A DNA stretch of 21,755 nucleotides. It comes from a virus. Location of the stretch: the IMG/VR virus record IMGVR_UViG_3300031975_001639, positions 1 through 21,755 of that record, one strand, 5' to 3'. The notes below the pieces were generated by a model. The model was given only the letters and a program-made list of their open reading frames with translations. It searched no databases and was not told the origin of the DNA. Shown piece by piece: positions 7,043 through 21,755 of this stretch. Position numbers and translations under genes: made by a program. Each line of letters begins with the position of its first letter. The stretch's first letter is position 1.

Positions 7043-8323
7043 TTAGACTATTCCTGAATCGTCTAATCTACGCCATGTTCCATTTATATATGCTTGGATT
7101 TTATTGTCCTGGGTATTGTATATCATATCGCCGTCAACTGCTGACAACGCATCTCTCTGCGTGTTTGTATAACTAGGTAACCTAAATGGTCCGCCACTAA
7201 CAACAGTTCCGTCTTGACTATTTAAATTTATTATACTAGCACTATCTATTGTAGGCGTACCATTTGATGTAGATACAAAATTATTCGCATACGCAGTGTT
7301 TCGTACACTTAGATCATTATCTACGCTTAGGTCTGATGACATTGTAACTGGTGGAGTCATTGTTATTCCACTGCTATCGTCTGTATCAATAATACTAGAA
7401 CCTATTGTAAAATTGCCATTAGAATCACCTGTTGCAGGGTCTTGAAATGTAAATGCTCCGCTACCGTCTGTTGTTAGTACTTGACCGTTAGTTCCATCTG
7501 AAATTCCTAAATCTGTTATTGCAGTAATATTTTGGAAAGGTGCTGTAGGTTGTACCCATTGGTTGCTGTCGCCGTCTGCTACATATACATAAAGTATACC
7601 GTTTGTACTATTATACCAAATTGCTCCACTTTCTGGGCTATCTGGTACTGTATCGCTGACACTGATACTTGCGGCGCCGCCGCCTGCACCCGGGTCTGCA
7701 CTAGTAAATGTATTACCCATTCCTAGATGTGATGTGCAATAATAATAAAGAGTTGCAGGTGTTGCACTAGTAACTGTGATTTGCACACTACGTTGTGTAC
7801 TTTTTGCAAATCCTGTTACATACTGTGCTTTTGTAACAATATCATTTTCTAATTTGTAAATTACATTTGTTAGATAAGGTGTGCCAGCGCCAAGTTCTCC
7901 ATTTGCATCATCTGCTGAAAAACTTAAAGGATGTATATTTGCTACACCACCGTCGGCATTCGGCCAAAATTCGTTTGTTTGATCGTTTTGATTGAAGACA
8001 TATGTAAAACCTGTAACTAAATTTAGTTCTGGTTTGTATAGTCCGTCAATGTTATATACATTTCCGAGGTCTTCGTCTACACCTGCTTGCACCGTTACAG
8101 CATATTCAACTACACCCACACCTGAGGAAAGTATATGTTCACTAATATTTTTATCAGTCAGTACACTATATCCGCCTGCTAAATTTCCAGAATATAACCT
8201 TAATGTGTTAGACTGTTTATCAAAAAATACTTCGCCACTATTTCCAACGTTTCTATCTAGAAAGTCGTCAGGCCGTGGTATAATTCTAATTCTGTCTACT
8301 ATTGGTGCTTGGTTTGATGCCAT
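7043..8323 (-). CDS. Tail-fibre-like virion protein with internal cupredoxin-like domain
   Basis: This 426-residue virion protein of marine phage type has three parts. Residues 1-60 hold an attachment-like segment (RIRIIPRPDDFLDR...GEVFFD). Residues about 100-208 form a cupredoxin-like domain with H131 (NIHPLSF), C196, H199 and M202 (YYYCTSHLGMGN), again a full blue-copper ligand set. Residues 215-426 hold WYN...YVYV, LTTDGSGAFTF and a final RLPSYTNTQRDALSAVDGDM segment followed by QDNKIQAYINGTWRRL, a common fibre/collar C-terminus. The ATG at 8323 has AAGGA eight bases upstream, but that site lies inside the 3' arm of a 13-bp hairpin (8331-8367), implying control of translation. The gene is first in the fibre-protease-fibre block downstream of groEL. 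The copper role is inferred. Confidence 0.75.
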   Translation of the reverse strand: MASNQAPIVDRIRIIPRPDDFLDRNVGNSGEVFFDKQSNTLRLYSGNLAGGYSVLTDKNISEHILSSGVGVVEYAVTVQAGVDEDLGNVYNIDGLYKPELNLVTGFTYVFNQNDQTNEFWPNADGGVANIHPLSFSADDANGELGAGTPYLTNVIYKLENDIVTKAQYVTGFAKSTQRSVQITVTSATPATLYYYCTSHLGMGNTFTSADPGAGGGAASISVSDTVPDSPESGAIWYNSTNGILYVYVADGDSNQWVQPTAPFQNITAITDLGISDGTNGQVLTTDGSGAFTFQDPATGDSNGNFTIGSSIIDTDDSSGITMTPPVTMSSDLSVDNDLSVRNTAYANNFVSTSNGTPTIDSASIINLNSQDGTVVSGGPFRLPSYTNTQRDALSAVDGDMIYNTQDNKIQAYINGTWRRLDDSGIV

Positions 8324-8375: not shown

Positions 8376-10070
8376 TTAGTACGTGTCGCCGTTACCTTGG
8401 TCGTATTGGGGCGGCAATACTTTTTCACCTGCACTAGGTGAAGGTCCAAGGACAGTTATATCTTCTTCGTCATTATCTTCGTAAATGGCACAGTCAGTAA
8501 TTAAAAGTAATCCTGCTATACTTGCAGCATTCATAAGAGCTTTTTGTACAACAGTGATAGGATCAATAATACCAATATCAAACATATTTCCATATTCACC
8601 CGTAGCGGCATCGTAACCAAATTCGGCATCTCCTTTGGTTACTTCATTTGCAACAACATCGGGGCTATCACCTGCATTTATAACAATCTGTCTTAGAGGC
8701 TCTTGTAAAGCCTTAAGAACAACTTGTATGCCTGCATCCTGATCTGAATTTTCTCCTTTGAGATCTTTAATTTTGTTCATTGCACGTATTAATGCAACTC
8801 CGCCACCTGGTACAATACCATCTTTAAGAGCAGCTTTTGTAGCATGAAGAGCATCATCAATTCTATCTTCTTTTTCGCGCAGTTCAATTTTTGTTGCTGA
8901 TCCGACTCTAATAATACTCACGGCACCGGTTAGGTTACTAATACGCTTTTGTTGACCTTTGTCAGTAAAAACGTCATCTCCTCTAGGAGCATCAATATAG
9001 TATTTAATTTTTTCATCTATATATTTTGTAATAGTGTCTTTGTCGCCGTGGCCGCCAATAATAGTTACCTGACTATCGGTAATTTCTACTCTATTTGCTA
9101 CTCCGCAATCTTCTAATTCGGCACTTTCTACTTTTCTACCTGTTTGATCAGAAATTACATTTCCGCCTGTCAGTACAGCAATATCTTCGCAGTATTTTGT
9201 ACGCATCTTGCCCTTCCAATCTGGTGGTTTAACTGCACAACATTGTATAGATCCGTTTAAGTTGTTTATTACCAATGTAGCAAGCACATCTTGCTCTACT
9301 TCTTCAGCCATAATTAAAAATGGACGTTTAGTTTCTACTAGTTTTTCTAGTATAGGTAAAACATCATTCATATTTAAAATTGGTCTGTCACAAATTAAAA
9401 TTAGCGGATTTTCTAAAACACATTTTTGTTTATCTGCATTAACAAATTGAGGAGATAAGTATCCGTGTTCGTATTGAAATCCGTTAACATTAACAAGCTC
9501 ATCATAATAATTCGTACCTGGCTCAACTGATACTAGTGCTTCGTGAGTTGCGTTGTCGCCGCCAAGAGCTTCTGTAATTAGTTTACCTAATTTAGGATCA
9601 TTGTTGGTTGCAATGGTTGCAACAGCTTCAGTTGATGATCTATCTTTACAAACTTTTGCATCAGCTTTAAGTTCTTTCATTACTGCTTCTACAGCTATAT
9701 CTATACCTCTTTTTAAATTAATGCCACTGATACCTGCTGTTAAGAATTTATTGCCTTCGTTGATCATTTTTTGGGCCAATAGTGTTGCTGTGGTTGTTCC
9801 ATCACCAATATCTTGGAATGTTTGTGTAGCCGCCTGCTTAATCATACGGACACCAGTATCTTCAAGTTTATCTTTTAACCAAATTTCTTTAGCAACAGTA
9901 ACTCCATCCTTTGTTACATGAGGCGGGCCAAATGTTCTTTGACAAATTACGTTTCGGCCTTTAGGGCCAAGTGTTACTTTAACTGCATTTGCAAGAATGT
10001 TAACACCGTCAATTATCTTTTTACGTCCAGGTGCGCCCTGAACAACTACTCTAGGAATAATTTTAGACAT
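8376..10070 (-). CDS. groEL: Phage-encoded GroEL (Cpn60) chaperonin
   Basis: This is a group I chaperonin subunit that folds proteins in an ATP-driven double ring with GroES; here it is probably for phage virion or accessory proteins. The length is 564 residues (E. coli 548). The equatorial ATP-binding motifs are present: TLGPKGRN (33-40), DGVTVAKEI (55-63), GDGTTTA (89-95) with D90, D406 (RIDDALHAT, equivalent to E. coli D398) and VPGGG (420-424). The apical domain includes FLIMAEEVEQD and the EDIAVLTGG...GRKVESAELED region. The C-terminal Gly-Gly-Met tail is missing, replaced by an acidic, Pro-containing tail (532-564), so the cavity floor differs from the bacterial form. The start has AAGGAG six bases upstream and overlaps the end of groES by 8 bases. 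The intact motifs suggest a working protein. Confidence 0.97.
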   Translation of the reverse strand: MSKIIPRVVVQGAPGRKKIIDGVNILANAVKVTLGPKGRNVICQRTFGPPHVTKDGVTVAKEIWLKDKLEDTGVRMIKQAATQTFQDIGDGTTTATLLAQKMINEGNKFLTAGISGINLKRGIDIAVEAVMKELKADAKVCKDRSSTEAVATIATNNDPKLGKLITEALGGDNATHEALVSVEPGTNYYDELVNVNGFQYEHGYLSPQFVNADKQKCVLENPLILICDRPILNMNDVLPILEKLVETKRPFLIMAEEVEQDVLATLVINNLNGSIQCCAVKPPDWKGKMRTKYCEDIAVLTGGNVISDQTGRKVESAELEDCGVANRVEITDSQVTIIGGHGDKDTITKYIDEKIKYYIDAPRGDDVFTDKGQQKRISNLTGAVSIIRVGSATKIELREKEDRIDDALHATKAALKDGIVPGGGVALIRAMNKIKDLKGENSDQDAGIQVVLKALQEPLRQIVINAGDSPDVVANEVTKGDAEFGYDAATGEYGNMFDIGIIDPITVVQKALMNAASIAGLLLITDCAIYEDNDEEDITVLGPSPSAGEKVLPPQYDQGNGDTY

Positions 10071-10368
10071 TATCTTCTCCTTTTAATTTTCCAAGAATTT
10101 CGTGTTCTTCTAAAATTAAAAATTCTTCTTTGTTAATTTTAATTTGGTGTCCAGCGTAGCGTGGATAGACAATCATGTCTCCTGCTTGTACAACCATATC
10201 TAATAACTTACCATCATCATTGATCTTACCTGGTCCTACACTAATAACTTCGCCTTTAGTGGGGCGTTCCTTAGTGTCATCAGAAAGAACAAGACCTGAC
10301 TTTGTTTTATTTTCGTCTTCGACTTTTTTTACAAGAAGTCTATCTCGTATAGGTTCAAATACCTGCAT
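10063..10368 (-). CDS. groES: Phage-encoded GroES (Cpn10) co-chaperonin
   Basis: This 101-residue co-chaperonin closes the GroEL cavity. It shows the family pattern: FEPIRDRLLVKK at the start and a mobile loop (about 20-33) with the GroEL-binding hydrophobic triplet in SGLVLS (E. coli GIVLT). A GEVISVGPGK strand, GDMIVYPRYAG and a final EEFLILEEHEILG follow. Two adjacent ATGs are possible (10371 and 10368). I chose 10368 because AAGGAG then lies six bases upstream, exactly as at groEL (AAGGAGAAGATAATG against AAGGAGAAGATGATG). It overlaps the groEL start, so the pair is co-translated. An exact TATAAATA late box lies just upstream, which suggests late expression with virion genes. Confidence 0.95.
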   Translation of the reverse strand: MQVFEPIRDRLLVKKVEDENKTKSGLVLSDDTKERPTKGEVISVGPGKINDDGKLLDMVVQAGDMIVYPRYAGHQIKINKEEFLILEEHEILGKLKGEDNV

Positions 10369-10398
10369 CATCTTCTCCTTAGTAACGACATTGCAAGG

Positions 10399-10406
10399 TA
10401 TTTATA
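10399..10406 (-). promoter_or_regulatory. T4-type late promoter for groES-groEL
   Basis: The minus strand reads TATAAATA exactly. The expected start point (six bases past the box, near 10393) gives a roughly 25-base leader containing AAGGAG before the groES ATG. It is located in the 70-base gap between groES and the assembly chaperone gene. Confidence 0.7.
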
Positions 10407-10438: not shown

Positions 10439-10879
10439 TTATGACGGCTTAGTTGGCCAATTAGGATCCCAAGGAAATCTAGTTTGTGCTGTCAGGTCAC
10501 GTAACGCTGTTCTATAAGTGGACCATTCGGATCTTTTACTAGCAGTCATTGCCGCAGATACATCAGGTAAACCAGAAAAATCTGATTCTAATAATAGCTG
10601 GTTTCTAGTTGCTTTTACTTCTGCTTCTCGCTCAGCTTGGGTTTTTGGCTGTGTGCGATAGCCGTCTGTTCCGTGTGTTAATTCACCGTAGTCACCGTTT
10701 TGTAATTTTGTGTAAAGCTCTACTGAAAGAGGTTCGTCTGAATCAGGTCTAGCAATATATTCGCAGAAATTTTCACAATCTGTAAATCTTATTCTACACC
10801 AAACTTCTTCTACACCCATCACATAACATGCGTCTTGAACAGCAACTACATCGCTTGCGGGAACATTTTTAATAGCCAT
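10439..10879 (-). CDS. Phage tail (fibre) assembly chaperone
   Basis: This 146-residue protein's C-terminal half matches the Phage_tail_APC pattern. It has a helix of Glu/Arg (QAEREAEVKATRNQLLLESD, 81-100), then the signature R-x2-W-x2-YR-x-ALRDL (about 116-129) and a closing FPWDPNWPTKPS. Such proteins help tail-fibre proteins fold or trimerise and are usually not in the virion. The N-terminal part (1-70), with four cysteines (C18, C28, C35, C39), is not recognised. It has AAGGAG five bases before its ATG and an exact late box (TATAAATA) upstream. Its place beside groESL puts three folding helpers together, next to two fibre genes. Confidence 0.75.
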   Translation of the reverse strand: MAIKNVPASDVVAVQDACYVMGVEEVWCRIRFTDCENFCEYIARPDSDEPLSVELYTKLQNGDYGELTHGTDGYRTQPKTQAEREAEVKATRNQLLLESDFSGLPDVSAAMTASKRSEWSTYRTALRDLTAQTRFPWDPNWPTKPS

Positions 10880-10902: not shown

Positions 10903-10910
10903 TATTTATA
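10903..10910 (-). promoter_or_regulatory. T4-type late promoter for the assembly chaperone
   Basis: The minus strand reads TATAAATA exactly, 23 bases before the ATG at 10879. The predicted start near 10897 leaves an 18-base leader that includes AAGGAG. It sits just past the stop codon of the oxygenase gene ending at 10917. Confidence 0.7.
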
Positions 10911-10916
10911 CAAAAT

Positions 10917-11561
10917 CTAAAATTCTTTATAGCCTAATCTAGGACGCTTGTCATATACCCATTCAGGATAAAACGGTCCGTCTTTGTTTATATAATGAAA
11001 AAATCCTTGTATATGATAACTATTTATTCCTGCTACAAAAGGATCTCTCCAATGTTCAATATCAACACCCCTATATATTAAAATATCGCCGGGCGACTGT
11101 TGTATCGGAATGCCTGGATTACCTGCACTTACAAAATTTCCTAGGATAGGAGTATTTACAGATTCTTTATCTACATACATGCTCCAATGATAATCTTCAG
11201 ATGTATCATTATATTTAAAGTCAAAGCATACTGATGTGCTTATTTCGCAACTTTCTCTATCTTTATGCCTTTCCAGCTCCATTCCAGGCCTGTATACTCT
11301 ATAATAACTGTAAGTAGGAGATAGTCGTAGTCCGGTATTTAATTCCATGTATGGTAGCAAGAAAAATTCTAATGTTTCCATTAGTGTATCACCATACACA
11401 CTATGAGAAAATGGTACTTGACCGTCTGCTTCTTCAGGTGCATCCAATTTATTTTCTTCTCTCATCAAACAGTATTTAGATACTAGGTTGCATATGTCTT
11501 TTGGTACAACTGATTTGCAGTCGACATATAGATTTTCTTTGAAATGATCTGGATTTGTCAT
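10917..11561 (-). CDS. Fe(II)/2-oxoglutarate oxygenase (prolyl-hydroxylase-like)
   Basis: This is a 214-residue non-haem iron dioxygenase-type protein. It has the canonical HxD motif H99-K-D101 after a YYRVYRPGMELER strand (87-98), then STSVCFDF. A PGDILIYRGVDIEHW segment (157-171) gives the distal ligand H170, and GFFHYIN (186-192) follows. The arginine that would hold 2-oxoglutarate is not obvious, although R172 is next to the distal His. Proteins of this form occur in marine phages and bacteria, with a substrate unknown. It starts with an ATGA overlap of the upstream oxygenase gene and is the last of a run of minus-strand oxygenase genes. No promoter of its own is visible. Confidence 0.72.
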   Translation of the reverse strand: MTNPDHFKENLYVDCKSVVPKDICNLVSKYCLMREENKLDAPEEADGQVPFSHSVYGDTLMETLEFFLLPYMELNTGLRLSPTYSYYRVYRPGMELERHKDRESCEISTSVCFDFKYNDTSEDYHWSMYVDKESVNTPILGNFVSAGNPGIPIQQSPGDILIYRGVDIEHWRDPFVAGINSYHIQGFFHYINKDGPFYPEWVYDKRPRLGYKEF

Positions 11562-12058
11562 CTAAATGGGTATCCTAAGTTCCAGCCTACTAAGCTATAC
11601 CTTGTACCTTTTGTGACTGGTGTTACTTGGTGGTAGACATGTGATGGAAATACTATAACACTGCCTTGAGGTCTAATTTCTGTGCATTCGTGAAATCTTT
11701 CATCGGCATGCGGTCCAAAATCAAATTTTAAATTTCCACCTTCATATTCTTCAGGTTTATTTAAACTGATCGTAACACTTAGCTTTCTTACCTTACCAAT
11801 TAAATTGGGATTAGAAGTCGCTAAATTATCCTCAGTTAAAGGATTACCAAATGTATCTAACATAGGAGTTCCATCAGGGTTAAGTTTCCACTTATCTTCT
11901 TGAGGTTTAAATTCACGATAAGGTTTTGACCCCATATCAACATGCCATCCATAAAATTGTCCTGGGCCATACTTTGTAAATTGAAATTCTTCGGTATAAT
12001 CCCAATCAAAATTCCAACCTGCTTGTTTGTTGGCTTCACCGACAAAAGATTGGACCAT
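11558..12058 (-). CDS. C-terminal part of a PKHD-type 2OG oxygenase, separated from its N-terminal part by an in-frame TGA
   Basis: This part carries the whole catalytic core: H39-V-D41 (GQFYGWHVDMG), a RKLSVTISLN strand, EEYEGGNLKF, distal H143 in FPSHVYHQVTPV and R153 in GTRYSLVGW, ending GYPFR. These are the features of PKHD-type hydroxylases (counted from the ATG at 12058). There is no Shine-Dalgarno before this ATG, which lies only six bases after the TGA that ends the preceding piece, in the same frame. Together the pieces (11558-12346) make one ordinary family-length protein of about 260 residues. The core may be made by readthrough, by re-initiation, or not at all. It ends with an ATGA overlap of the next oxygenase gene. 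Confidence 0.7.
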   Translation of the reverse strand: MVQSFVGEANKQAGWNFDWDYTEEFQFTKYGPGQFYGWHVDMGSKPYREFKPQEDKWKLNPDGTPMLDTFGNPLTEDNLATSNPNLIGKVRKLSVTISLNKPEEYEGGNLKFDFGPHADERFHECTEIRPQGSVIVFPSHVYHQVTPVTKGTRYSLVGWNLGYPFR

Positions 12059-12064
12059 TTCAAA

Positions 12065-12067
12065 TCA
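12065..12067 (-). other. In-frame TGA interrupting a 2OG oxygenase gene
   Basis: The minus strand reads GACGAACCTTGATTTGAAATG, decoding D-E-P-stop-F-E-M with no frame change. Homologues I recall have a tryptophan near here (a DPW-type motif before the helix), so TGG to TGA, one base, would explain it. TGA ends several other genes in the window, so it is not globally reassigned. Confidence 0.75.
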
Positions 12068-12346
12068 AGGTTCGTCATTAAGCCATGTGATGTTTGAGTC
12101 TCTTACATACGCTTCGGTAGGATCTAATCCTTCTTGTTTTAATTCTTCTATAGATTTATCATTTACTGCTTTTTGGTAACCTTCAGACCCTTTGTGTTGC
12201 CAACCACCTGTGGTAGCAATAGATACTTCTTTACCAAATTGCTCTTCTTGTGCCTTCATTTTTGCAAGACCCTGTTGAATTATATGATCACATAGGGACG
12301 GATCTATTGCTTTTTCAAAATACCAATAATCATAATCTAATATCAA
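12065..12346 (-). CDS. N-terminal part of the split PKHD-type 2OG oxygenase
   Basis: These 93 residues match the start of PKHD-like oxygenases: YWYFEKAIDPSLCDHII near the N-terminus, a TTGGW segment (46-50), and RDSNITWLND (82-91) just before the catalytic part. It lacks all iron ligands, so it cannot be an oxygenase alone. It ends at a TGA after which the same frame continues into the core. The start is a TTG at 12346 whose TG overlaps the TGA of the upstream gene; the next ATG would remove the conserved first strand. GGAG lies ten bases upstream, a weak site. It may be a helper or dimerisation piece, but a broken or leaky-stop gene is simpler. Confidence 0.6.
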   Translation of the reverse strand: MILDYDYWYFEKAIDPSLCDHIIQQGLAKMKAQEEQFGKEVSIATTGGWQHKGSEGYQKAVNDKSIEELKQEGLDPTEAYVRDSNITWLNDEP

Positions 12347-12960
12347 CGGAAAACAGCTCCATGCACATGACCAACAATAATTTTCTTTTCGCCTTTAGTA
12401 ATTTTATCAATACTATAGGGTATAAAAGATGGAAAAATTAAAATTGATCCCTTTGTGTTAGTATTTACTTCAGTAGTGTCAATATTTAAAAAAGAAATAT
12501 TTCCACCTTCGTATTCGTCTTCATCTGATAAATTTACCATCCAAGTAATTTTTCTTGTCGGTGCAAGAACATTTAAATCAATATGAGTTTTATAGTAACA
12601 TTCTTCAGTATATTTATAGACTTGCGGAAAATCTTGATCAATAATTCCTAATAGATCAAAATTGTAAATTTGATCGTTTGCAGCTTTTGTTATATCTCTA
12701 ATCTTATCAAAAGGAAACGCTGCAACATCTCCTCTTAACTTTTGTCTAAATCCTTTGTGCAAGTCTTCGTCGCCCATAACTTTAATAGGCATCCAAAGTT
12801 CATCAATAGTATTTTCGCATATAGTTTTGACTTCCTCGTCGTCAAACAGAGAATTAAAGTTTACTGAAGTAATCTGTAAACTTGCTTGTTGTTCTGGCTT
12901 ATCTGATTCTGTGCGTTCCATGGCCGGCTGTGTAAATCCGCTTGAATTTTCTGTGTTCAT
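12343..12960 (-). CDS. PKHD-like 2OG oxygenase with altered active site
   Basis: The fold is recognisable: H134-I-D136 (YKTHIDLN), RKITWMVNLS, DEYEGGNISF, a GSILIFPSF segment and a final VGHVHGAVFR. But where active members have FPSxxxH and R, this one has Y190 (FPSFIPYSI) and K200 (KGEKK). It thus seems to lack the distal iron histidine and the arginine that binds 2-oxoglutarate. It may be inactive, regulatory, or use another chemistry. I chose ATG 12960 because GGAGG lies six bases upstream; the upstream in-frame ATG at 12984 has no such site. The protein is about 205 residues with a disordered first 30. It leads the minus-strand oxygenase run and its stop overlaps the next TTG start. Confidence 0.7.
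   Translation of the reverse strand: MNTENSSGFTQPAMERTESDKPEQQASLQITSVNFNSLFDDEEVKTICENTIDELWMPIKVMGDEDLHKGFRQKLRGDVAAFPFDKIRDITKAANDQIYNFDLLGIIDQDFPQVYKYTEECYYKTHIDLNVLAPTRKITWMVNLSDEDEYEGGNISFLNIDTTEVNTNTKGSILIFPSFIPYSIDKITKGEKKIIVGHVHGAVFR
12611..12618 (-). promoter_or_regulatory. Possible internal late promoter
   Basis: An exact TATAAATA on the minus strand lies inside the oxygenase gene, 265 bases before the TTG at 12346. It could drive the downstream split oxygenase. It is also explained by the codons for K-Y, so it is weak. Confidence 0.25.
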
Positions 12961-13069
12961 TTCTTTCCTCCGTTTCGCATACACATTTACTTATCTACGT
13001 ACATTACTATTTAATAATTTATTGATTCGTATTTCTGGTGATGTGTGCTAATTAAAGTTAAATATATAT
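12961..13069. promoter_or_regulatory. Divergent intergenic region between the two oxygenase runs
   Basis: This is the longest non-coding gap, between a minus-strand gene (start 12960, GGAGG at 12967-12971) and the plus-strand halogenase operon (start 13070). It must hold promoters for both directions. No exact TATAAATA is present. The plus side is AT-rich (TTAAATATATATATG) with no Shine-Dalgarno, so the first plus gene may be started from an unusual leader. Confidence 0.4.
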
Positions 13070-13675
13070 ATGATTTTACCAAAAGATACAACATACTCAG
13101 ATGGTTTACTTAGCGACCAACACAAAGCAATTATTGAAAATGATGTTTTAGGATTTCATTTTCCTTGGTACTATGTAGGTAAACAAACAACTTATATTCC
13201 ACCTGAAAATACTCCTGAAAAAATAAAACAAGGGTCGTATGTTAATGGTCCTTTCTTAAGCCATTCGCTTCTACGGAGAACTGAAGAAGAACATATTAAA
13301 CACACTGATAGACCAACTGATCATTTTAGTGACGGATATGCAGAATTCTTTTTTGAAATTTTTCATAACTGGATGCATCAAAATAATAAATCTTATCATA
13401 ATATTTTTAGAGCTAACGTAAATTGTAATTGGTACAATGGCGAAAATGCTGTTACAGTACCACACGAAGATCATACTTGGCATCATCATAATTGGTTATT
13501 ATATTTGACAGATAATCCCACAGCTCCTACACTAGTATGGAACGAAGAGATGAATGATTGGAACGAATTACCTGCACAAAAATGGCAAGTATCACAGTTC
13601 AAAGGTTGTTATCATGCCCACAAATACCCGGCATTACACGAAAGACGAGTGGTAGTGGTATTTACATATGCATAA
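13070..13675 (+). CDS. Fe(II)/2-oxoglutarate oxygenase-like protein
   Basis: This 201-residue protein is of the double-stranded beta-helix dioxygenase type. Its iron motif is H132-E-D134 in TVPHEDHTWHHH, followed by NWLLYLTDNP (141-150), where such proteins have a YLN strand. A VWNE strand comes next, then KGCYHAHKYP with the distal ligand H182 or H184, and ERRVVVVFTY with R192/R193 for the co-substrate. The His-rich stretch (H132-H140) is unusual. There is no Shine-Dalgarno before the ATG. It heads a plus-strand operon of two oxygenases and two halogenases; its end overlaps the next gene by 8 bases. The family is assigned from motif order only, and the substrate is unknown. Confidence 0.65.
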   Translation: MILPKDTTYSDGLLSDQHKAIIENDVLGFHFPWYYVGKQTTYIPPENTPEKIKQGSYVNGPFLSHSLLRRTEEEHIKHTDRPTDHFSDGYAEFFFEIFHNWMHQNNKSYHNIFRANVNCNWYNGENAVTVPHEDHTWHHHNWLLYLTDNPTAPTLVWNEEMNDWNELPAQKWQVSQFKGCYHAHKYPALHERRVVVVFTYA

Positions 13676-14300
13676 TTTTAATGTTATTGATCAAACAATT
13701 ATATTACACATGGAAAATGAAATTCCACAAGCAATGTGTGACAAAATTAGTAACCAAATTACAAAATATAAAGATCAAACACTTAATACAGATAGGAAAA
13801 TGTTAAAAAATAGTCATTTTGGATGCTGGAGAGGAAAGCCGCATTTACACAACGGCTTTGATGAGCAAACACAACAGTACCTTGTAAATAAAATTTTAGA
13901 AGTTTCAAATCAATACATGTCTGCTTTACCTAAACCTAATAAAATTAGTATGCAAGATGTAGAAATATCTACTCAGTGGAATGTTGATGCTTGGTTTAAC
14001 ATGAACGAAAGGGGTGCAGAAAATAGAGAACATGCTCACACATCTAGTGCAAACTTAGTAAGTGGCGTTTTTTACTTTCAAGGCACAGGAACTGGAGCAA
14101 TTGAATTTATACCACAACATTATATGCATAGAACAACACATGTTTCTTGGCCGTATCATGGAACTTCGTACTATGAACCTAAGGATGGAGATATATTATT
14201 ATTTCCAAGTTATTTGATACACAAAGTACATAATAACCCTATTGATAGACAAAGGATTAACATGGCTTTTAACTCCGGATTAGCAACAGAGGATTTTTAA
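13668..14300 (+). CDS. Putative Fe(II)/2OG oxygenase (2OG-FeII_Oxy_5 type)
   Basis: This 210-residue protein shows the typical phage pattern: DAWFNMN (107-113), REHAHTSSANLVSGVFYF with H122-A-H124, and a GAIEFIPQ strand. These are followed by GDILLFPSYLIHKV with distal H185 and then R196 in QRINMAFN. The HxH replaces the classical HxD, as in its paralogues at 1695, 17315 and 20061. It overlaps the preceding gene by 8 bases and its TAA overlaps the ATG of the first halogenase (TAATG), so oxygenase and halogenase are produced together. That coupling suggests that they act on the same substrate or pathway, although this is an inference. Confidence 0.75.
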   Translation: MHNFNVIDQTIILHMENEIPQAMCDKISNQITKYKDQTLNTDRKMLKNSHFGCWRGKPHLHNGFDEQTQQYLVNKILEVSNQYMSALPKPNKISMQDVEISTQWNVDAWFNMNERGAENREHAHTSSANLVSGVFYFQGTGTGAIEFIPQHYMHRTTHVSWPYHGTSYYEPKDGDILLFPSYLIHKVHNNPIDRQRINMAFNSGLATEDF

Positions 14301-15829
14301 TGAAAATTGTAATTGTAGGTGGCGGAACAGCAGGCTGGGTAACTGCAATAATTGCTAGTGCAAGACACAAAGATCACAATATTACTGTGATTGAAAGTAG
14401 TAAAATTGGTGTTGTCGGTGTTGGTGAAAGCACTACTGGGCACTTTACTGATATATTAACTAACTGGGCATCAAACTTTGGATGTGATCAAAACGAATTT
14501 ATTAAGGAAACTGGTGCAACTTTAAAATACGCTATCAAGCACAAGGGGTGGACTAATGATGTTGATGATTACTATATAGGACCTATTGACGGTACTACTA
14601 CTGCTGGTGCTGTACCTGATTGTATGTTTAACTATGGCTTAGATAAACTACAACGAAAAGAATTATTAAATTTATCTAGATGCGGACACTGGATTCATGA
14701 TGGTAAAAGTAATTTTAACAAACATACTAACCAGTTTGCAAATAATCATCATGCATATCATATAGACGCCCATCTTGCTGGTCAATATTTTAAAAAAGTT
14801 GTCCTACGTAGGCATAACACTACCTATATAGATTCAGAAGTATTAGATGTATCATTAAATGAACAAGGATTTGTTAAAAATTTAAAATTATCAAACGGAG
14901 AAATTGTTGACGGTGATCTCTTTATTGATTGCTCTGGATTTAACAGAGTAATTATGAAGCACTTACCGAGTAAATGGATTAGTTACCAGTCGAATTTGCC
15001 TCTCAATACAGGTATGCCGTTTCATTTAAAATATAAAGAAAACGAAACACCTGAACCGTATACAACAGCATGGGCACAAAAGGCTGGATGGATGTGGCAA
15101 ATTCCTTTAATGGACAGAAAGGGTTGTGGGTATGTTTACTGTGATGCATACACTACTCCTGATAAAGCACAACAAGAAATTGAAACTATTCTAGGGCAAC
15201 AAATTGATCCTATTAAAACAATTAAGTTTGATGCAGGTAGACAAGAATCGGCTTGGATCAAAAATTGTGTTACTATTGGTCTTAGTAGTGCGTTTCTAGA
15301 GCCGCTTGAAGCAACTAGTATTCACTCAACTATTGTCCAAGCAAATAATTTGTTTCTTGAATATGTACAACCAACTATTGAAGATACCCTAAATCCGGGA
15401 AGTATTTCTATCTACAACAAGCGTACTAGAAAACTATATGATGATATCAAAGATTTTCTTGTACTACATTACATGGGGGGTAGAAAAGATAGTGAGTTTT
15501 GGAAATATATAAATTCTGGCGTAACACAAACCGAATTTGTCAAAGAATTACTTGCAATGATAAAACATAGAACACCAACTGTAAATGATTTTCCGCACTA
15601 TCAAGGCAGTGCCGGGTGGCCTTTGTATAGCTATGTTATGGAAGGCATAAATTTACTAGATAAAACAAAAGCAGGTAAAGAAATAGACTTTGATCTAAAA
15701 GAAGGTAATCTGTATGAGTTAACACAAGACAGTTTTTATCATCAAAACAACATATGGCGTAATGAAGATCAATATACATACAGTTACAAAGAATTTATTG
15801 ATTATTTTAGAGAGTTAAGAAGAAAATGA
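14300..15829 (+). CDS. Flavin-dependent (tryptophan-type) halogenase, copy 1
   Basis: This 509-residue FAD-dependent halogenase would use FADH2, O2 and halide to halogenate an aromatic substrate. The FAD-binding GGGTAG is at residues 7-12, and GVGES at 40-44. The lysine that carries the halogen (PrnA K79) corresponds to K76 in ATLKYAI. The class signature W-x-W-x-I-P is intact at 264-269 (WMWQIP), and the catalytic glutamate is E337 in FLEPLEATS. All key sites are therefore present and the enzyme is likely active. Its start shares TAATG with the oxygenase before, and its stop shares ATGA with copy 2. A phage halogenase (VirX1, from a cyanophage) is known to halogenate several substrates; whether this one prefers tryptophan or a larger substrate cannot be told. 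Confidence 0.9.
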   Translation: MKIVIVGGGTAGWVTAIIASARHKDHNITVIESSKIGVVGVGESTTGHFTDILTNWASNFGCDQNEFIKETGATLKYAIKHKGWTNDVDDYYIGPIDGTTTAGAVPDCMFNYGLDKLQRKELLNLSRCGHWIHDGKSNFNKHTNQFANNHHAYHIDAHLAGQYFKKVVLRRHNTTYIDSEVLDVSLNEQGFVKNLKLSNGEIVDGDLFIDCSGFNRVIMKHLPSKWISYQSNLPLNTGMPFHLKYKENETPEPYTTAWAQKAGWMWQIPLMDRKGCGYVYCDAYTTPDKAQQEIETILGQQIDPIKTIKFDAGRQESAWIKNCVTIGLSSAFLEPLEATSIHSTIVQANNLFLEYVQPTIEDTLNPGSISIYNKRTRKLYDDIKDFLVLHYMGGRKDSEFWKYINSGVTQTEFVKELLAMIKHRTPTVNDFPHYQGSAGWPLYSYVMEGINLLDKTKAGKEIDFDLKEGNLYELTQDSFYHQNNIWRNEDQYTYSYKEFIDYFRELRRK

Positions 15830-17325
15830 AGATTACTATTGTTGGCGGCGGAACATCGGGCTGGACAAATGCATTAATATTGGCAAATGATCACCCTCAT
15901 CATACCTTTCATGTAATTGAATCCTCCAAAATTGGAATTATTGGTGTTGGAGAAAGTACTACTGGTTACTTTACTAAGTTATTTAACGGCAGGTATCCAG
16001 TGTCTCTCAAAGACTTTATGTTTGAAACTAATGCTACACCAAAATATGCTATACGTCATGTAAATTGGGCTCCCGATGTTAATCCATCATACATTGCACC
16101 CATTGATGGTAGTGAATCTAGCTCATTTCATCATGATATATTTTTTAATTACGGAGTAAATTACCTAAATAGAGATAAGTTTCATAAAATTAGTCGGTTA
16201 GGTAATTTATTAGACTGGAATAGGTCATTAATGAGCGCAGAAACCGAAGATTTCATTAGCACTGACTTTGCATTGCACATAGATGGTCAAAAAACCAGTC
16301 AATATTTTAAAAAGCATGTTTTAAAGTTGCCTAATGTACAATTAATAGACACAGAAGTAGAAAATGTAAATTTAGATGACAATGGCTACATATCAACACT
16401 TAGTTTGGCCAACGGCATGACTCATAGTGCTGACTTTTTTATTGATTGTAGTGGATTTAATAAAATTTTAATAAAAGAGTTAGAAAAAGATAACTGGACC
16501 AGTTATAAAAAGTATTTGCCTGTAGATACTGCCATACCTTTCTTTACAAAGTACAAACAAAACGAAACTCCTGAACCTTATACATCAGCTATAGCACAGA
16601 GTAGTGGTTGGATTTGGCGCGGCCCACTTGCTCACCGTAGAGGTAACGGTTATGTATTTGATAGTAATTTTATATCATCCGATGATGCAATATCTGAAGT
16701 TGAATCTACACTAGGACAAACAATAGAACCTATAAAAACAGTGAAATTTGAAGCTGGTAGATTAAACAACAGTTGGATTAAAAATTGTTTTGCAAATGGT
16801 CTTTGTTCACAGTTCTTAGAACCATTAGAAGCTACAGCAATACACAATACTATTGTACAAGCCGAACTTTTTAGTTTAAACTTTTTAAGAAATACAGTAG
16901 AAGACACTTGTAATATAGATTCACAGAAAATTTACAATGGACAATTTAGAAAAACTGTAGATGACATTATGCATTTCCTAGTCATGCACTATAGAGGTGG
17001 TAGAGAAGATACAGATTTTTGGAAATATATAAAAAATGAATGTAGTACCGAACTTGTAAATACGCTAATTGGTACTGCTAAGTCTCGAGTGCCTGGTATG
17101 GTTGACTTTCCAACCTACTACGGTAGCGGAGGATGGCCTTTATACAGCCATGTCATGTATCAACTAGGACTTATAAACAAGGATGTTGCAGGATCGCATT
17201 TTGGTAAGTTTTATATGTTAGATGATGTTGCTAATTCGTTTCACGATCAAGTTGATGCGTGGAATTTTGACACTAGAAACTGTATAAATTTGCCACAGTT
17301 ACAAAAATTAAGATTTAAAAATTAA
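15826..17325 (+). CDS. Flavin-dependent halogenase, copy 2 (variant signature)
   Basis: This is a 499-residue paralogue of copy 1, coupled to it by ATGA. It has GGGTSG (7-12), GVGES (40-44), the halogen-carrier lysine K73 (ATPKYAI) and E335 in FLEPLEATA. The W-x-W-x-I-P signature reads WIWRGP (262-267), with Ile replaced by Gly and an Arg before it. That segment keeps FADH2 from acting as a plain monooxygenase, so specificity or activity may differ. Similar spacing of every other motif (DCSGFNK near 208, NETPEPYTSA near 246) shows it arose by duplication with divergence. It ends in an 11-base convergent overlap with the minus-strand oxygenase gene. It is probably active, with less certainty than copy 1. 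Confidence 0.87.
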   Translation: MKITIVGGGTSGWTNALILANDHPHHTFHVIESSKIGIIGVGESTTGYFTKLFNGRYPVSLKDFMFETNATPKYAIRHVNWAPDVNPSYIAPIDGSESSSFHHDIFFNYGVNYLNRDKFHKISRLGNLLDWNRSLMSAETEDFISTDFALHIDGQKTSQYFKKHVLKLPNVQLIDTEVENVNLDDNGYISTLSLANGMTHSADFFIDCSGFNKILIKELEKDNWTSYKKYLPVDTAIPFFTKYKQNETPEPYTSAIAQSSGWIWRGPLAHRRGNGYVFDSNFISSDDAISEVESTLGQTIEPIKTVKFEAGRLNNSWIKNCFANGLCSQFLEPLEATAIHNTIVQAELFSLNFLRNTVEDTCNIDSQKIYNGQFRKTVDDIMHFLVMHYRGGREDTDFWKYIKNECSTELVNTLIGTAKSRVPGMVDFPTYYGSGGWPLYSHVMYQLGLINKDVAGSHFGKFYMLDDVANSFHDQVDAWNFDTRNCINLPQLQKLRFKN

Positions 17326-17941
17326 AACTTAAAGATATTCTTCCATCGCTTATGTCATCAGTAATATTTTGTTCTACATAATGACTCACATGACTAGGAA
17401 ATAAAATAAGCATACCTTCTATAGGGTAATACCAATGTGTATTATTGGTTTCTGGGTTATCAACCTGGGTATCATTTGCTGCGTATATAGACTGTATGTT
17501 ATGCATACGATCGTATTCGTTAGTACTACGATTAAAAACTATCCTACCACTATCTTTAGGAACTTTAATATAGTAGACACCACTGATTAAAGAATTAGCA
17601 TGTATGTGTTCTCTATTATATGTAAATTTAGGATTTAAGTTATACCAATAACTAAAGCTATTAATGTCATGTGGTACATTCCATCCATTTAAAATTTTAG
17701 CAACTGCTGGTTGTATCCATTGTTCAAATAGCTTTTGTGTTTCATCAAAGTCAAATGGCATTGGGTAGATATCATTAGTTTGAAACCCTCCTGCATTACT
17801 ACGTTGACGTCTAACATTAGGCACATTATTATCTAAATAATTTACATGCTCAGTTATTTTACTGTTGTCAATGTCTTGGACATAAGTAGTATAAGCAGAG
17901 GTTACAAACATTGGGTGATGTTCTAAATGTATATTTTGCAT
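17315..17941 (-). CDS. Putative Fe(II)/2OG oxygenase (2OG-FeII_Oxy_5 type)
   Basis: This 208-residue protein shows the family pattern: SFSYWYNLNP (95-104), REHIHANSLISGVYYI with H112-I-H114, and SGRIVF. A GMLILFPSHVSHYV segment with distal H187 and R201 in GRISLSFNF complete it. I chose the ATG at 17941; an upstream TTG at 17974 would add 11 residues that do not resemble the family. No Shine-Dalgarno precedes this ATG. Instead an exact TATAAATA lies so close that transcription would begin at or beside the A of the start codon, implying a leaderless message. It is a lone minus-strand gene between two plus-strand halogenases, convergent with copy 2 (11-base overlap). Confidence 0.75.
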   Translation of the reverse strand: MQNIHLEHHPMFVTSAYTTYVQDIDNSKITEHVNYLDNNVPNVRRQRSNAGGFQTNDIYPMPFDFDETQKLFEQWIQPAVAKILNGWNVPHDINSFSYWYNLNPKFTYNREHIHANSLISGVYYIKVPKDSGRIVFNRSTNEYDRMHNIQSIYAANDTQVDNPETNNTHWYYPIEGMLILFPSHVSHYVEQNITDDISDGRISLSFNF

Positions 17942-17946
17942 AATGA

Positions 17947-17954
17947 TATTTATA
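17947..17954 (-). promoter_or_regulatory. T4-type late promoter, possibly giving a leaderless transcript
   Basis: The minus strand reads TATAAATA. The expected start, six bases after the box, coincides with the A of ATG 17941. It overlaps the plus-strand element at 17951-17958, so one short AT-rich site may serve both directions. Confidence 0.55.
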
Positions 17955-17958
17955 AGTA
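17951..17958 (+). promoter_or_regulatory. Late-promoter-like box for halogenase copy 3
   Basis: The plus strand reads TATAAGTA, one mismatch from TATAAATA. The predicted start near 17964 would leave a 16-base leader with AAGGA (17966-17970) nine bases before the TTG start at 17980. It overlaps the opposite-strand box. Confidence 0.45.
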
Positions 17959-17979
17959 AAGTTTTAAGGAACAAAGAAA

Positions 17980-19440
17980 TTGAATAAACTAGAAAAAATT
18001 TCAGTTGTAGGAGGCGGCACAGCTGGACTTGTTGCGGCTTTAATTTTAAAAACTAGATTTCCTAGTAAAAAAATACAAATAATTCGTTCTGAAAAAATAG
18101 GAATTATTGGTGTAGGCGAAGGTAGTACTGAACACTGGAACGAATTTATGAATTATATAGGTTTAAATTATAAAGATATAATAAAAAATTGTGATGCAAC
18201 ATTTAAAAGCGGCATTATGTTCCAAAATTGGCACGACAAGGATTATTTACATAGTATAGGTCCTGAACATGAAATTATAAACGGCCAGTATAGAACATAC
18301 TACGGGAAAGTTATTTCACACAACTGGTCAAACAAAGAATTAAATCCTTTAGGAACTTGGGAAAATACAGTTGACCAATGGCATTTAGATAATGACAGTC
18401 CTTACAATCAATTTCATTTTAATACACAAAAACTTAATGATTATTTGCATATCATAGCAGAACAAAAAGGTATTAACATACTAGATGACGAAATACAAGA
18501 TGTTGTGTTAGACGCTCAAGGTGATATCAGTTATATTGTAGGTGAGAAAACAAACTACGCTAGTGACTTTTTTATTGATTGCACTGGATTTAAACGTTTA
18601 TTAATTAATAAATTAGGAGCAAAGTGGAATAGTTACAGCAAATATTTAAAAATGAAATCTGCTATTGTATTCCCTACAGAACAAAAGCAAGAAATTGATC
18701 TTTGGACTACTGCGCGAGCAATGGATTATGGATGGATGTTTACTATTCCGGTTTGGGATCGTTGCGGCAATGGATATATTTTTGATAGTGATTATATAAC
18801 TGCTGACCAAGCACAGCAAGAAGTAGAAGAATTGCTTGGTAAGAAAATAAATGTTGGTAAACATCTTAAGTTTGATCCAGGTGCATTAGATCGTGTATGG
18901 ATAAACAACTGTTGTGCAATAGGGTTAAGTGCAAGTTTTGTAGAACCTTTAGAGGCGACTAGCATTGGCACTAGTATTAACCAAGCATTTTTGCTTATGC
19001 ACCGACTTCCGAACTATACCAAAAAATCAATTGACGAATACAACAAACAAATAGAAATTGTGTTGCATAATATTAGAGATTTTGTTGCACTGCATTATGT
19101 TACAAATAAAGACCACAATGAATTTTGGAAAGATGTAAAAAATATTACCTTGCCAGGAGAGTTATCTGATTGGTTAGATCATTGGAAAAACAATTTACCT
19201 ATACTAGAGGATTTTATTCATACTGGTAGCTATGCATTATTTAAGGATCCGCATTTCATACAAATTTTAGCAGGGTTAGAATTATTTGATCGGAACAGTC
19301 TTCTTGCTGAATATGATATGTTAAGTGATGCAAATAGGAAACTTGCTGACGGCATTCGTGAAGAACGTAGAGTATTAGGTATGAATAAAGTTATGATAGG
19401 ACATAAAGAATTTTTAGCAAGATTAAGGGCTAAAGAATAG
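17980..19440 (+). CDS. Flavin-dependent halogenase, copy 3 (divergent)
   Basis: This 486-residue protein is of the same class but a separate lineage from copies 1 and 2. It has GGGTAG (11-16), GVGEG (44-48, Gly in place of Ser) and K76 in CDATFKSGIMFQNW, which matches PrnA K79 context well. E325 lies in FVEPLEATS. The signature reads WMFTIP (252-257), with the second Trp replaced by Phe. The body between 85 and 200 differs strongly from copies 1 and 2, suggesting a distinct substrate. It starts with TTG preceded by AAGGA; no ATG is close in frame. It stands alone on the plus strand, flanked by minus-strand genes, and its last 18 bases overlap the DUF6445-like gene tail to tail. Confidence 0.87.
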   Translation: MNKLEKISVVGGGTAGLVAALILKTRFPSKKIQIIRSEKIGIIGVGEGSTEHWNEFMNYIGLNYKDIIKNCDATFKSGIMFQNWHDKDYLHSIGPEHEIINGQYRTYYGKVISHNWSNKELNPLGTWENTVDQWHLDNDSPYNQFHFNTQKLNDYLHIIAEQKGINILDDEIQDVVLDAQGDISYIVGEKTNYASDFFIDCTGFKRLLINKLGAKWNSYSKYLKMKSAIVFPTEQKQEIDLWTTARAMDYGWMFTIPVWDRCGNGYIFDSDYITADQAQQEVEELLGKKINVGKHLKFDPGALDRVWINNCCAIGLSASFVEPLEATSIGTSINQAFLLMHRLPNYTKKSIDEYNKQIEIVLHNIRDFVALHYVTNKDHNEFWKDVKNITLPGELSDWLDHWKNNLPILEDFIHTGSYALFKDPHFIQILAGLELFDRNSLLAEYDMLSDANRKLADGIREERRVLGMNKVMIGHKEFLARLRAKE

Positions 19441-20061
19441 TACCTGATTCAATCTAAATATTTTAAAAAATTCATCGTTAGTAACACTCATACCATGTAA
19501 AAAATATTCAGCATCAAAAAGAATTGCTCTATTAAACTTACCCTCTAGTGTTTTTATTACTTTGTATTTACTTGCAGGGCGCCACGGTTCATAATGTTCG
19601 GGTCCATCATAAACATCTTGTTCTATTTGTTTGTACAAGTTCGTGCCTTGATCAGTAGTAGGATTTAAATAAATTATTCCAATATAACCTTCAAAGTCAA
19701 TATGCGGCACCCAATAATTTTCTTTGTAATTATTAAATTCTTTATCAATAAACTTTATACAGTTAGTAGATACTATACTCTTATGTTGCTGATAGATTCG
19801 TTGTCCGCATATTTTACCCAATTCATCCGCAACTTTTTCTACATCATAATCTATAAAATTATGTCTATAGTCTAAAAAATGCACACCATTATAACTAGGA
19901 GTATCATTTGCTTTGTGTAAATCTGGTTTTTCCTGCGTTAGCAAATAAGAAACTAGTTCATCTGGATTTTTATAAAACTCATCAACATAGTAAATTTTAC
20001 TATCTTTAAAGGTTTCCTCGATAACTTTATAGTTAGGATTTATTTCAAATTTATTATACAT
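19423..20061 (-). CDS. DUF6445-like protein (2OG oxygenase fold)
   Basis: This 212-residue protein resembles DUF6445, a family found beside tryptophan halogenases in bacteria. It has VDEFYKNPDELVSYL near the start (26-40), a YWVPHIDFEGYIGIIYLN stretch (116-133) with H120-I-D122, and KFNRAILFDAEYFLHGM (175-191) with H189. R203 follows. The HxD...H...R order suggests an iron/2OG dioxygenase. Its location immediately convergent with halogenase copy 3 (18-base overlap) matches the known partnership, implying a joint pathway. The start is at TAATG overlapping the upstream stop. The role is unknown; the family match is from memory of its motifs. Confidence 0.65.
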   Translation of the reverse strand: MYNKFEINPNYKVIEETFKDSKIYYVDEFYKNPDELVSYLLTQEKPDLHKANDTPSYNGVHFLDYRHNFIDYDVEKVADELGKICGQRIYQQHKSIVSTNCIKFIDKEFNNYKENYWVPHIDFEGYIGIIYLNPTTDQGTNLYKQIEQDVYDGPEHYEPWRPASKYKVIKTLEGKFNRAILFDAEYFLHGMSVTNDEFFKIFRLNQVLFFSP

Positions 20062-20645
20062 TAACTATAGTTTACTGCAATACTCATTCTGGGAGTTTTA
20101 TTTTTACATGGTTCTACCATATGCCTAAGATAAGATCTAAAAATAAGTAGTTTGCGTTCCTCTGCTTCGTATCCTATGCGTGTAAAACTTAAACTATTTC
20201 TAGATTTTATATCTCTAATTTGTAACATATCTGGTTCTTTCGGGTCTTCGAAAATTAATTTACCTGATCCTGCAGGTGCTGCTACCCAATACACACAGCT
20301 AAAAATTGCATTATTGTGTGTGTGAAACTCTTGAAATGTGCCTTCTGAATTAATATTAAGCCACGCACCTGACATTGTTAGTTTAGATTTTGATCCATGC
20401 ATTTCGGCAAAATTGTGTGCATGGGCTGTAATTTGGTCTAATAACGGATGGAATATTTCGTCGTTGGTCAAATCAAAAGTGTCATGTGTATTATACGTGT
20501 CACCGTACCACTCTTTACCTCCATTAGCAACAGTCTTTTGTAGTTCTAAACCACGGTTATAAACTTTTGTATTTTCTTCTACAGATATAATTCCCGAGTC
20601 TTTGTATATAGCTACTGGGAACCACATTTCAACACTAGGATCCAT
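20061..20645 (-). CDS. Putative Fe(II)/2OG oxygenase (2OG-FeII_Oxy_5 type)
   Basis: This 194-residue protein shows the family pattern: MWFPVAIYK (7-15), GAWLNIN (93-99), and FQEFHTHNNAIFSCVYWV with H108-T-H110. A SGKLIFEDP strand, RSYLRHMVEP with distal H175 and R186 in PRMSIAVNYS complete it. I chose ATG 20645 because GAGGTGATC, a long match to the 16S 3' end, ends right before it; a GTG two codons upstream lies within that site. It overlaps the upstream gene by 11 bases and the next gene by one (TAATG). It belongs to a four-gene minus-strand oxygenase run ending at the halogenase. Confidence 0.78.
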   Translation of the reverse strand: MDPSVEMWFPVAIYKDSGIISVEENTKVYNRGLELQKTVANGGKEWYGDTYNTHDTFDLTNDEIFHPLLDQITAHAHNFAEMHGSKSKLTMSGAWLNINSEGTFQEFHTHNNAIFSCVYWVAAPAGSGKLIFEDPKEPDMLQIRDIKSRNSLSFTRIGYEAEERKLLIFRSYLRHMVEPCKNKTPRMSIAVNYS

Positions 20646-21285
20646 GATCACCTCTTTCGTTACGTAATTTTTTTACTGTATCATCGACATCTGCCCAAAC
20701 ATTATAAGAAACAGATAACCTATCTTTATTTGACTTATTAATCTCTACGCTGTGTTGTAGCCAAGATTCAAACATTATCATTTCGCCTACTTTGGGGGCA
20801 TATTCAATAAAATCGTAATTATACTGATTTTCTACTTTTCTTATTCTATCAAAAAACACATCTGTTGCACGTCTTGGTTCTAGAGGATTATGAAATTTTA
20901 AATTCCCAGAATTTTCAGGAACTTCTAGATAAAATACTCCACTTACTATTGCTCCGTAATGATCATGTCTGTTAAACAAAGATCCTGGTTGGTTTATTTG
21001 TAACCAACTAGTAATTTCAACATAACAATTAGGATTTAATCCCTTTAATTCTAAAAATCCCCTTACATGTTTGTTAATTTCCTCTAATATAGGAATAGCA
21101 TTTATTGTGCCTAAAAAGTTTTTATTATCATGATAATATGTAGTAAGCAATTTATTTTTTTCTTGTTTGCTTTCGGGCATTTTTTCTTTGACGTAAGTAC
21201 ATACTTTTTTGTGTACGTCATCTAATGCAGACTTATCTAAATCAAGTGTAACTATAGGAATTGGAAATGCATGATCTATTCTCAT
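20635..21285 (-). CDS. Putative Fe(II)/2OG oxygenase (2OG-FeII_Oxy_5 type)
   Basis: This 216-residue protein shows the same family: FPIPIVTLDLD (7-17), SWLQINQPGSLFNRHDHYG (93-111) with H107-D108-H109, and VSGVFYLEVP. These are followed by SGNLKFHNP, GEMIMFESWLQHSVE with distal H178 and R189 in RLSVSYNVW. It is closest in pattern to the gene at 20061. The ATG has GGAGG four bases upstream and overlaps the upstream TGA (ATGA). The C-terminal tail (196-216) is charged and not conserved in the paralogues. Confidence 0.78.
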   Translation of the reverse strand: MRIDHAFPIPIVTLDLDKSALDDVHKKVCTYVKEKMPESKQEKNKLLTTYYHDNKNFLGTINAIPILEEINKHVRGFLELKGLNPNCYVEITSWLQINQPGSLFNRHDHYGAIVSGVFYLEVPENSGNLKFHNPLEPRRATDVFFDRIRKVENQYNYDFIEYAPKVGEMIMFESWLQHSVEINKSNKDRLSVSYNVWADVDDTVKKLRNERGDHGS

Positions 21286-21755
21286 TTTGCCTCCGTATTA
21301 ATATTAATAATTACACGTCTTTTACTTTTTATAGGGTTGCTTGCTGTATGATATTTTAGTCCATTAATGACAAGAAGTCGATTTGCTTTCGGTGATACTC
21401 TATCTTTAACTGTAAAAGTATCATAACTTATTCCTAAATTAGGGCCAGAAGGTACTGGAGTGAACTTTTCTTCAAATATTCTTGTATCACCGTCACAATC
21501 ATTAAGATAATAAATTAAACTGAGATGAGGTATAAAATAATCAACATGGGGTAGATTATAATTTTCTTCGGTATAGCCTATTTTAGGATGTTTTATACTA
21601 GCCCTTGATCGAATTATATCATTGTAGGTTATACCAAAATTATTTTGTATTTGATTATTAAAGTCTTCCATTACCTTATGTGTGACAGCTTCTAATCCAA
21701 GATCTCGATCATAAAACAAATGTGCATATCCGTCTGTTTCTACTGCTTCTTTGTT
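21282..21755 (-). CDS. Fe(II)/2OG oxygenase, 5' end cut by window edge
   Basis: The frame is open to the right edge; the TTG at 21719 is probably internal, since twelve further in-frame codons (ending AHLFYDRDLG) precede it. The readable core is a classical iron dioxygenase: H58-V-D60 in LPHVDYFIPH (counted from that TTG), LSLIYYLND, GDTRIFEE, VSPKANRLLVI, distal H124 in KYHTAS and R134/R135 in KRRVIININ. Unlike its neighbours it has the usual HxD, so it is a different subfamily of the phage prolyl-hydroxylase-like type. Its TGA overlaps the next ATG (ATGA), making it the first visible gene of the four-gene minus-strand run. The N-terminus lies outside the window. Confidence 0.78.
   Translation of the reverse strand, partial: NKEAVETDGYAHLFYDRDLGLEAVTHKVMEDFNNQIQNNFGITYNDIIRSRASIKHPKIGYTEENYNLPHVDYFIPHLSLIYYLNDCDGDTRIFEEKFTPVPSGPNLGISYDTFTVKDRVSPKANRLLVINGLKYHTASNPIKSKRRVIININTEAK

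Follow-up and report, generated by a model that had tools for sequence, protein, structure and literature searches.

What a bacteriophage would gain from several flavin-dependent halogenases encoded beside a long series of iron oxygenases is the question raised by the locus described here. Annotations of viral halogenases go back to the first Prochlorococcus phage genomes, and one such enzyme, VirX1, is a prized biocatalyst. In the literature, we found no paper giving viral halogenases a native substrate or tying them to tail fibres, and no published link of prnA or 2OG oxygenase genes to tail adhesins. The DNA analysed (the window) is a 21.8-kb IMG/VR-type virus record that encodes a gp15-type tail-sheath stabiliser, tail proteins, GroEL/GroES and a tail-fibre assembly chaperone, and its source is an uncultured aquatic T4-like phage. 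No nucleotide-level match to the window was found in isolated phages. The capsid comparison was made on a relative, contig G002, whose capsid protein is nearest to those of Vibrio phage 2.275.O, Sinorhizobium phage Phosso and PA5oct-type (Pseudomonas) phages (65-71% identity); close cyanophage kinship was rejected on account of this similarity, which points weakly to a proteobacterial host. At a probability slightly below one half (about 0.48), we propose that most of a T4-like phage's virion-tailoring island, made up of several enzymes and expressed late, lies within the window, and we infer its substrate and chemistry.

Composition of the enzyme island

The features of the window are as follows.

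1695-2273, plus strand: ox1, PF13759 oxygenase near gp15 (PF13759, 4e-11)
8376-10371, minus strand: GroEL and GroES chaperonin pair (homology to phage GroEL; island-linked in relatives)
10399-10406, minus strand: late-promoter-like motif before GroES, TATAAATA
10439-10879, minus strand: TFA, tail-fibre assembly chaperone (PF16778, 4.6e-13), co-directional with ox2-ox4; order TFA-ox2-ox3-ox4 kept
10903-10910, minus strand: late-promoter-like motif before TFA, TATAAATA
10917-11561, minus strand: ox2, 2OG-oxygenase-like, phrog_2954 (labelled ferrochelatase); H99, D101 and H170 conserved
11558-12346, minus strand: ox3, 2OG oxygenase (PF13640, 3.1e-15); window copy interrupted by a frameshift near 12058-12065
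12343-12984, minus strand: ox4, 2OG-like, without the distal His (dN/dS 0.11-0.17)
13070-13675, plus strand: ox5, 2OG-oxygenase-like (phrog_274); H132, D134, H182 and R193 invariant; profile match to ox11
13668-14300, plus strand: ox6, PF13759 oxygenase of the HxH type (PF13759, 4.4e-15; HxH...H...R)
14300-15829, plus strand: FDH1, flavin-dependent halogenase, 509 aa (PF04820, 2e-98); K76 and E337 conserved in 142 relatives
15826-17325, plus strand: FDH2, halogenase, duplicate within the FDH1 clade (tree), 499 aa (PF04820, 1.1e-87)
17315-17974, minus strand: ox7, PF13759 oxygenase (PF13759, 1.2e-20)
17947-17954, minus strand: late-promoter-like motif before ox7, TATAAATA
17951-17958, plus strand: late-promoter-like motif before FDH3, TATAAGTA
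17980-19440, plus strand: FDH3, halogenase of a separate clade (tree), 486 aa (PF04820, 3.3e-95)
19423-20061, minus strand: ox8, DUF6445 oxygenase-like (PF20043, 8.9e-6); H120, D122, H189 and R203 invariant
20061-20651, minus strand: ox9, PF13759 oxygenase (PF13759, 4e-19)
20635-21285, minus strand: ox10, PF13759 oxygenase (PF13759, 1.5e-23; structure model and fold search)
21282-21755, minus strand: ox11, 2OG-oxygenase-like (phrog_274, 1e-19; HxD...H...R), cut by the window end

The first-pass annotation had reported three flavin-dependent halogenases and seven Fe/2OG-type oxygenase genes at 13070-21755, several of them overlapping, with four further oxygenase genes to the left or near gp15. 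All of these are borne out, as FDH1-FDH3, ox5-ox11 and ox1-ox4, with overlaps of 1 nt (ox6/FDH1) and 4 nt (FDH1/FDH2). The enzyme island is confirmed as real and is bigger than was reported there: its end is cut by the window, and five PF04820 genes are present in each of the nearest contigs, G001, G002 and G013, with three to six PF04820 matches in other related islands. The set of three halogenases therefore stands for the window and gives way, for the whole island, to five genes of four clades. Beyond the window end, relatives gathered by scans of IMG/VR carry first, in most cases, ox12, and then FDH4, a 242-aa gene (u242) and FDH5. The u242 gene belongs to phrog_17480 and remotely resembles a DUF6065-type family; its model (pLDDT 89.3) gave weak dUTPase-like matches (best E 0.004), and no function was assigned by fold. 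The remotely related phrog_17480 and phrog_7084, one member of which matches DUF6065, are regularly found next to phage halogenases (L079:12677-13405, L083:3804-4541, L083:1598-2323).

FDH1, FDH2 and FDH3 all keep the GxGxxG motif, the active-site Glu and the Lys aligned with the catalytic Lys of solved tryptophan halogenases; with the catalytic residues intact, halogenating activity is predicted for the three. The WxWxIP positions read WMWQIP in FDH1, WIWRGP in FDH2 and WMFTIP in FDH3, and are exact in FDH1 alone. A tree of 142 halogenases resolves four deep clades, FDH1 (with FDH2 as its duplicate), FDH3, FDH4 and FDH5, each spread over contigs. FDH5 clusters with VirX1 and adhesin-side cyanophage halogenases, and a halogenase of cyanophage S-RIM44 that lies beside talC/hli clusters with FDH1. 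In the S-PM2 record (NC_006820, 121319-122608) the halogenase frame contains one internal stop codon and is possibly a pseudogene. The reported absence of a flavin reductase holds for PF01613, which was sought and not found in 12 related contigs.

The cut-off of PF13759, Pfam's putative 2OG family, is passed by ox6, ox7, ox9 and ox10; ox8 matches DUF6445, and ox5 and ox11 fall in phrog_274, labelled 'DNA endonuclease V', yet keep HxD...H...R. The HxD...H triad and the 2OG-binding Arg are present in ox3 (whole in relatives, 262 aa), ox5, ox8 and ox11; ox2 has the triad, and a clear Arg was not seen. In the PF13759-type ox1, ox6, ox7, ox9 and ox10 the invariant pattern is HxH...H...R rather than HxD...H...R, which predicts a three-histidine iron site in an oxygenase fold, the use of 2OG by these family members being putative. 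At the distal iron-ligand position of ox4, Tyr, Phe or Trp replaces His in 15/15 aligned copies. Because this His is lost throughout and the gene is under purifying selection, ox4 is probably a pseudoenzyme acting as a partner subunit rather than an enzyme. The start of ox7 is probably 17911, since the late motif at 17947-17954 overlaps the longest frame.

The fold assignment rests on an AlphaFold model of ox10 (pLDDT 86.5), a double-stranded beta-helix whose nearest solved structures are the uncharacterised marine bacterial proteins 3bvc and 2rg4, followed by HIF prolyl hydroxylases (PHD2 and its relatives, E near 1e-7). For ox3/ox4, the profile finds structures of the PKHD and prolyl-4-hydroxylase types. 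The modelled ox10 and the ox3/ox4 folds are thus protein-hydroxylase-like, a likeness that does not in itself prove a protein substrate. The labels 'DNA endonuclease V' (phrog_274), 'ferrochelatase' (phrog_2954) and 'minor coat protein' (phrog_1644) are borne by 2OG-like proteins and have been copied into isolate records, which suggests that these PHROG names are misleading on island genes. Sister islands also contain a 350-aa gene in which a 2OG-like domain is fused to DUF6817 (L021:12157-13209, L036:7666-8718, L068:8325-9374).

Conservation and late-promoter motifs

Conserved gene order in related phages had been put forward as a check on the island, and the layout is indeed kept in more than 20 contigs. 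Together with dN/dS values of 0.04-0.25 for every island gene, which indicate purifying selection, this argues that the island is not a chance assembly. For eleven gene families, pairwise distances are correlated over as many as 20 contigs (r 0.47-0.93); given these correlations and the low dN/dS, the set is old and has been kept together.

These data bear on the possibility that a recombining tail-fibre region has collected enzymes for unrelated tasks such as counter-defence or nucleotide/tRNA modification. Oxygenase number and order do differ between contigs, carbamoyltransferase, methyltransferase and DUF6065-type genes are present in some sister islands and missing from others, and hot-spot regions have been noted in cyanophage genomes (PMC3037559). 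Such a cargo site nevertheless accounts poorly for a core order kept over deep divergence, for distances that correlate across families and for the repeated placement of one halogenase clade on the adhesin side in two distant lineages; we judge it rather unlikely. A carbamoyltransferase was rejected as a core partner (2/12 contigs).

A ribosomal peptide natural-product cluster with its precursor nearby is highly improbable. Peptide tailoring commonly employs flavin halogenases and 2OG oxygenases; against this stand genes that overlap nearly end to end, leaving no intergenic room for a precursor in the window island, and the lack there of any conserved small gene, in agreement with the earlier observation that no precursor peptide gene is visible. 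No pathway, transport, resistance or leader-binding genes were seen in the island.

The island seems to belong to the late regulon. Within the window, the raw number of ATAAATA occurrences falls below chance, and CTAAATA was dropped as a late motif for the same reason; the informative measures are the position of ATAAATA upstream of genes and the stricter T4-type motif TATAA[AG]TA across relatives. The latter lies upstream of TFA in 9/21 contigs, GroES in 7/15, ox7 in 13/18, FDH4 in 10/20 and FDH3 in 5/21, with 0.018 expected per stretch, and was not found in relatives before the downstream genes ox2, ox3, ox8, ox9, u242 and FDH5. In the 152.8-kb relative G008 it stands before four genes of the island, before three of the head/tail region and before none of 64 genes for DNA metabolism. 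It is this placement, in the relatives and in G008, that suggests late expression.

Tail adhesins beside the island

The window stops before the next tail genes, and adhesin adjacency was therefore read in relatives. In G002 blocks of very long tail-fibre genes flank the island, and FDH5 is directly followed by three tandem proteins of 354-378 aa, about 30% glycine, with Gly_rich_2 matches. Gly_rich_2 genes are the next tail genes in island-type contigs that reach far enough past FDH5 or u242, and in G008 their products are the sole Gly-rich proteins among 131 genes. In contigs with fewer halogenases a Gly-rich gene lies 0.3-2.1 kb from FDH3. Where a short contig carries many halogenases, adjacency by itself says little (rotation p up to 0.36). 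The receptor-binding tips of Pam3 and T2-type fibres are built from Gly-rich GGGGxGG domains, and in Pam3 a dedicated chaperone folds these domains (PMC9608196, PMC12892980). Tryptophan is not raised in the tail fibres (1.14%, versus 1.57% in other proteins), a point against tailoring.

Several further genes of the tail region are recorded here as observations. Tail proteins 7043-8323 and 2880-4496 carry CTSHxxM-type motifs (YYYCTSHLGMG, YQCTSHSAMFG) like a cupredoxin type-1 copper site, possibly marking a metal-binding tail domain. The protein at 4519-7041 in the same gene run has a subtilase domain (PF00082, 1.9e-29; 1303 aa in the G002 relative). A Nudix gene (1270-1698), kept in many relatives, adjoins gp15 and is followed by ox1 and then by a cysteine-dioxygenase-like cupin (2273-2626, phrog_7851). 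Giant proteins of structural type, 3454, 3109 and 5155 aa long, are encoded in G008 (31026-41390, 41444-50773, 87369-102836).

The adhesin link was conceived on uncultured contigs and S-RIM44, where Gly_rich_2 adhesins lie beside halogenases in the same layout, and was then checked in ten other cyanophage genomes. Both families occur in 8/10, and in six of these eight (syn9, P-RSM6, P-TIM40, S-WAM1, Sf-FR1 and Sf-CH3) a Gly_rich_2 gene lies 0.5-0.8 kb from a halogenase, with rotation p of 0.02-0.06 each. The isolates share synteny, and the adjacency counts are therefore not independent. The gap is 6.9 kb in S-SSM7, and the two genes are far apart in S-B64; S-SRM01 is without a Gly_rich_2 match, and its halogenase is flanked by a tail-fibre gene and a gene annotated 'adhesin tip complex'. 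Past the halogenases, the sequence continues into same-family oxygenase genes in S-RIM44 and in five of the six isolates (syn9, P-RSM6, P-TIM40, S-WAM1 and Sf-FR1); for Sf-CH3, the region read for oxygenases was that of its other halogenase alone.

It is with the FDH5/VirX1 clade that the adhesins are most closely associated, as judged from the tree grouping and from the talC/hli-side gene of S-RIM44, which falls in the FDH1 group. The tailoring link is correspondingly strongest for FDH5, which abuts the adhesins just outside the window. It is weaker for FDH1-FDH3, tied to adhesins through the island and, for FDH3, also through the contigs with fewer halogenases. Counter-cases exist: the halogenases of P-SSM2, S-B64 and G003 lie away from the Gly-rich adhesin genes, and FDH1-type genes occur in non-tail contexts. 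Tail-fibre neighbourhoods are, moreover, variable regions that gather cargo, which also counts against tailoring.

The FDH1-type genes off the tail regions in S-RIM44 and G003 would suit a different explanation, in which small host metabolites (tryptophan, indoles, phenolics or pigments) are halogenated and hydroxylated to steer the host or to make a toxic or protective compound. This corresponds to the usual view of phage prnA as an auxiliary metabolic gene; the closest solved relatives of the window halogenases are free-tryptophan halogenases, and prnA and phage 2OG genes have been treated as host-metabolism genes (PMC3037559, PMC2984593, PMC10452541). It does not, however, predict the late-promoter motifs, the tail chaperone or the adhesin linkage, the island is without pathway, transport or resistance genes, and bacterial halogenase loci are without these oxygenases in 79/80 cases. 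We regard it as unlikely.

Proposed function and comparison with known systems

The first-pass annotation had suggested a multi-step tailoring route on a ribosomal peptide, a virion protein, a glycan or a host metabolite. This suggestion is partly supported. A conserved multi-enzyme set is well supported, and a locally encoded ribosomal peptide is disfavoured. Among the substrates offered a virion protein has by far the best contextual support, because of the late-promoter motifs, the tail-fibre chaperone inside the island and the Gly-rich tail-tip adhesins adjoining it. For virion tailoring we envisage that, late in infection, host-reduced flavin would feed the halogenases, which would attach Br, I or Cl to exposed aromatic residues of newly made tail-tip or tail-fibre proteins, while the 2OG oxygenases would hydroxylate other side chains of these proteins. 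TFA and GroEL/ES would fold and assemble the modified fibres, and the outcome would be an adhesin that differs in how it binds its receptor, in stability or in resistance to proteases. Conserved adhesin aromatics such as W49, W167, Y260 and Y354 are speculative target residues. The carbamoyltransferases and methyltransferases of some sister islands might be expected in a side-chain decorating suite. Broader, and held more tentatively, is the proposal that T4-like phages, including the VirX1 cyanophages, halogenate and hydroxylate their own tail-tip adhesins post-translationally, and that this is the native role of viral halogenases. If true, receptor-binding proteins decorated with halogens and hydroxyls would change views of host recognition and of protein halogenation.

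Alpha- and Gammaproteobacteria likewise often hold two or three PF04820 genes together. Their loci differ in that the phage oxygenase families are absent nearby, the one exception (L092) being a 13-kb contig filed in a MAG, and bacterial clusters are accordingly unsupported as the source of the halogenase-oxygenase pairing. A precedent is found in the collagen hydroxylase/glycosyltransferase system of Mimivirus, which is reported to encode 2OG hydroxylases alongside collagen-type fibre proteins (PMC5802723, PMC9546862). The island differs in being without collagen repeats and without glycosyltransferases. To our knowledge, halogenases are not part of the Mimivirus system.

The same gene families, prnA and 2OG-Fe(II), are found in T4-like cyanophages and in pelagiphage HTVC008M, often as adjacent genes; the gp13-gp17 region of HTVC008M contains a 2OG cluster together with a 2OG/halogenase pair, and for T4-like cyanophage genomes one or two copies of prnA and as many as five 2OG genes have been reported (PMC3037559). 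VirX1 of cyanophage Syn10 (PDB 6QGM), identical except for the first residue to gp42, the second halogenase of syn9, is likewise a phage PF04820 halogenase, and the FDH5 of the relatives lies in its clade; the window FDH1-FDH3 belong to other clades, at about 30% identity. Its large open active site tolerates bulky substrates (PMC8407142) and may suit a protein. In syn9, two PF04820 halogenases have Gly-rich 'tail fiber assembly' genes on one side and a series of 2OG genes on the other, whereas the present island has five halogenases in a non-cyanophage lineage. A halogenase/oxygenase/adhesin layout is thus common to two distant phage lineages, which makes the tail tip a testable proposal for the substrate.
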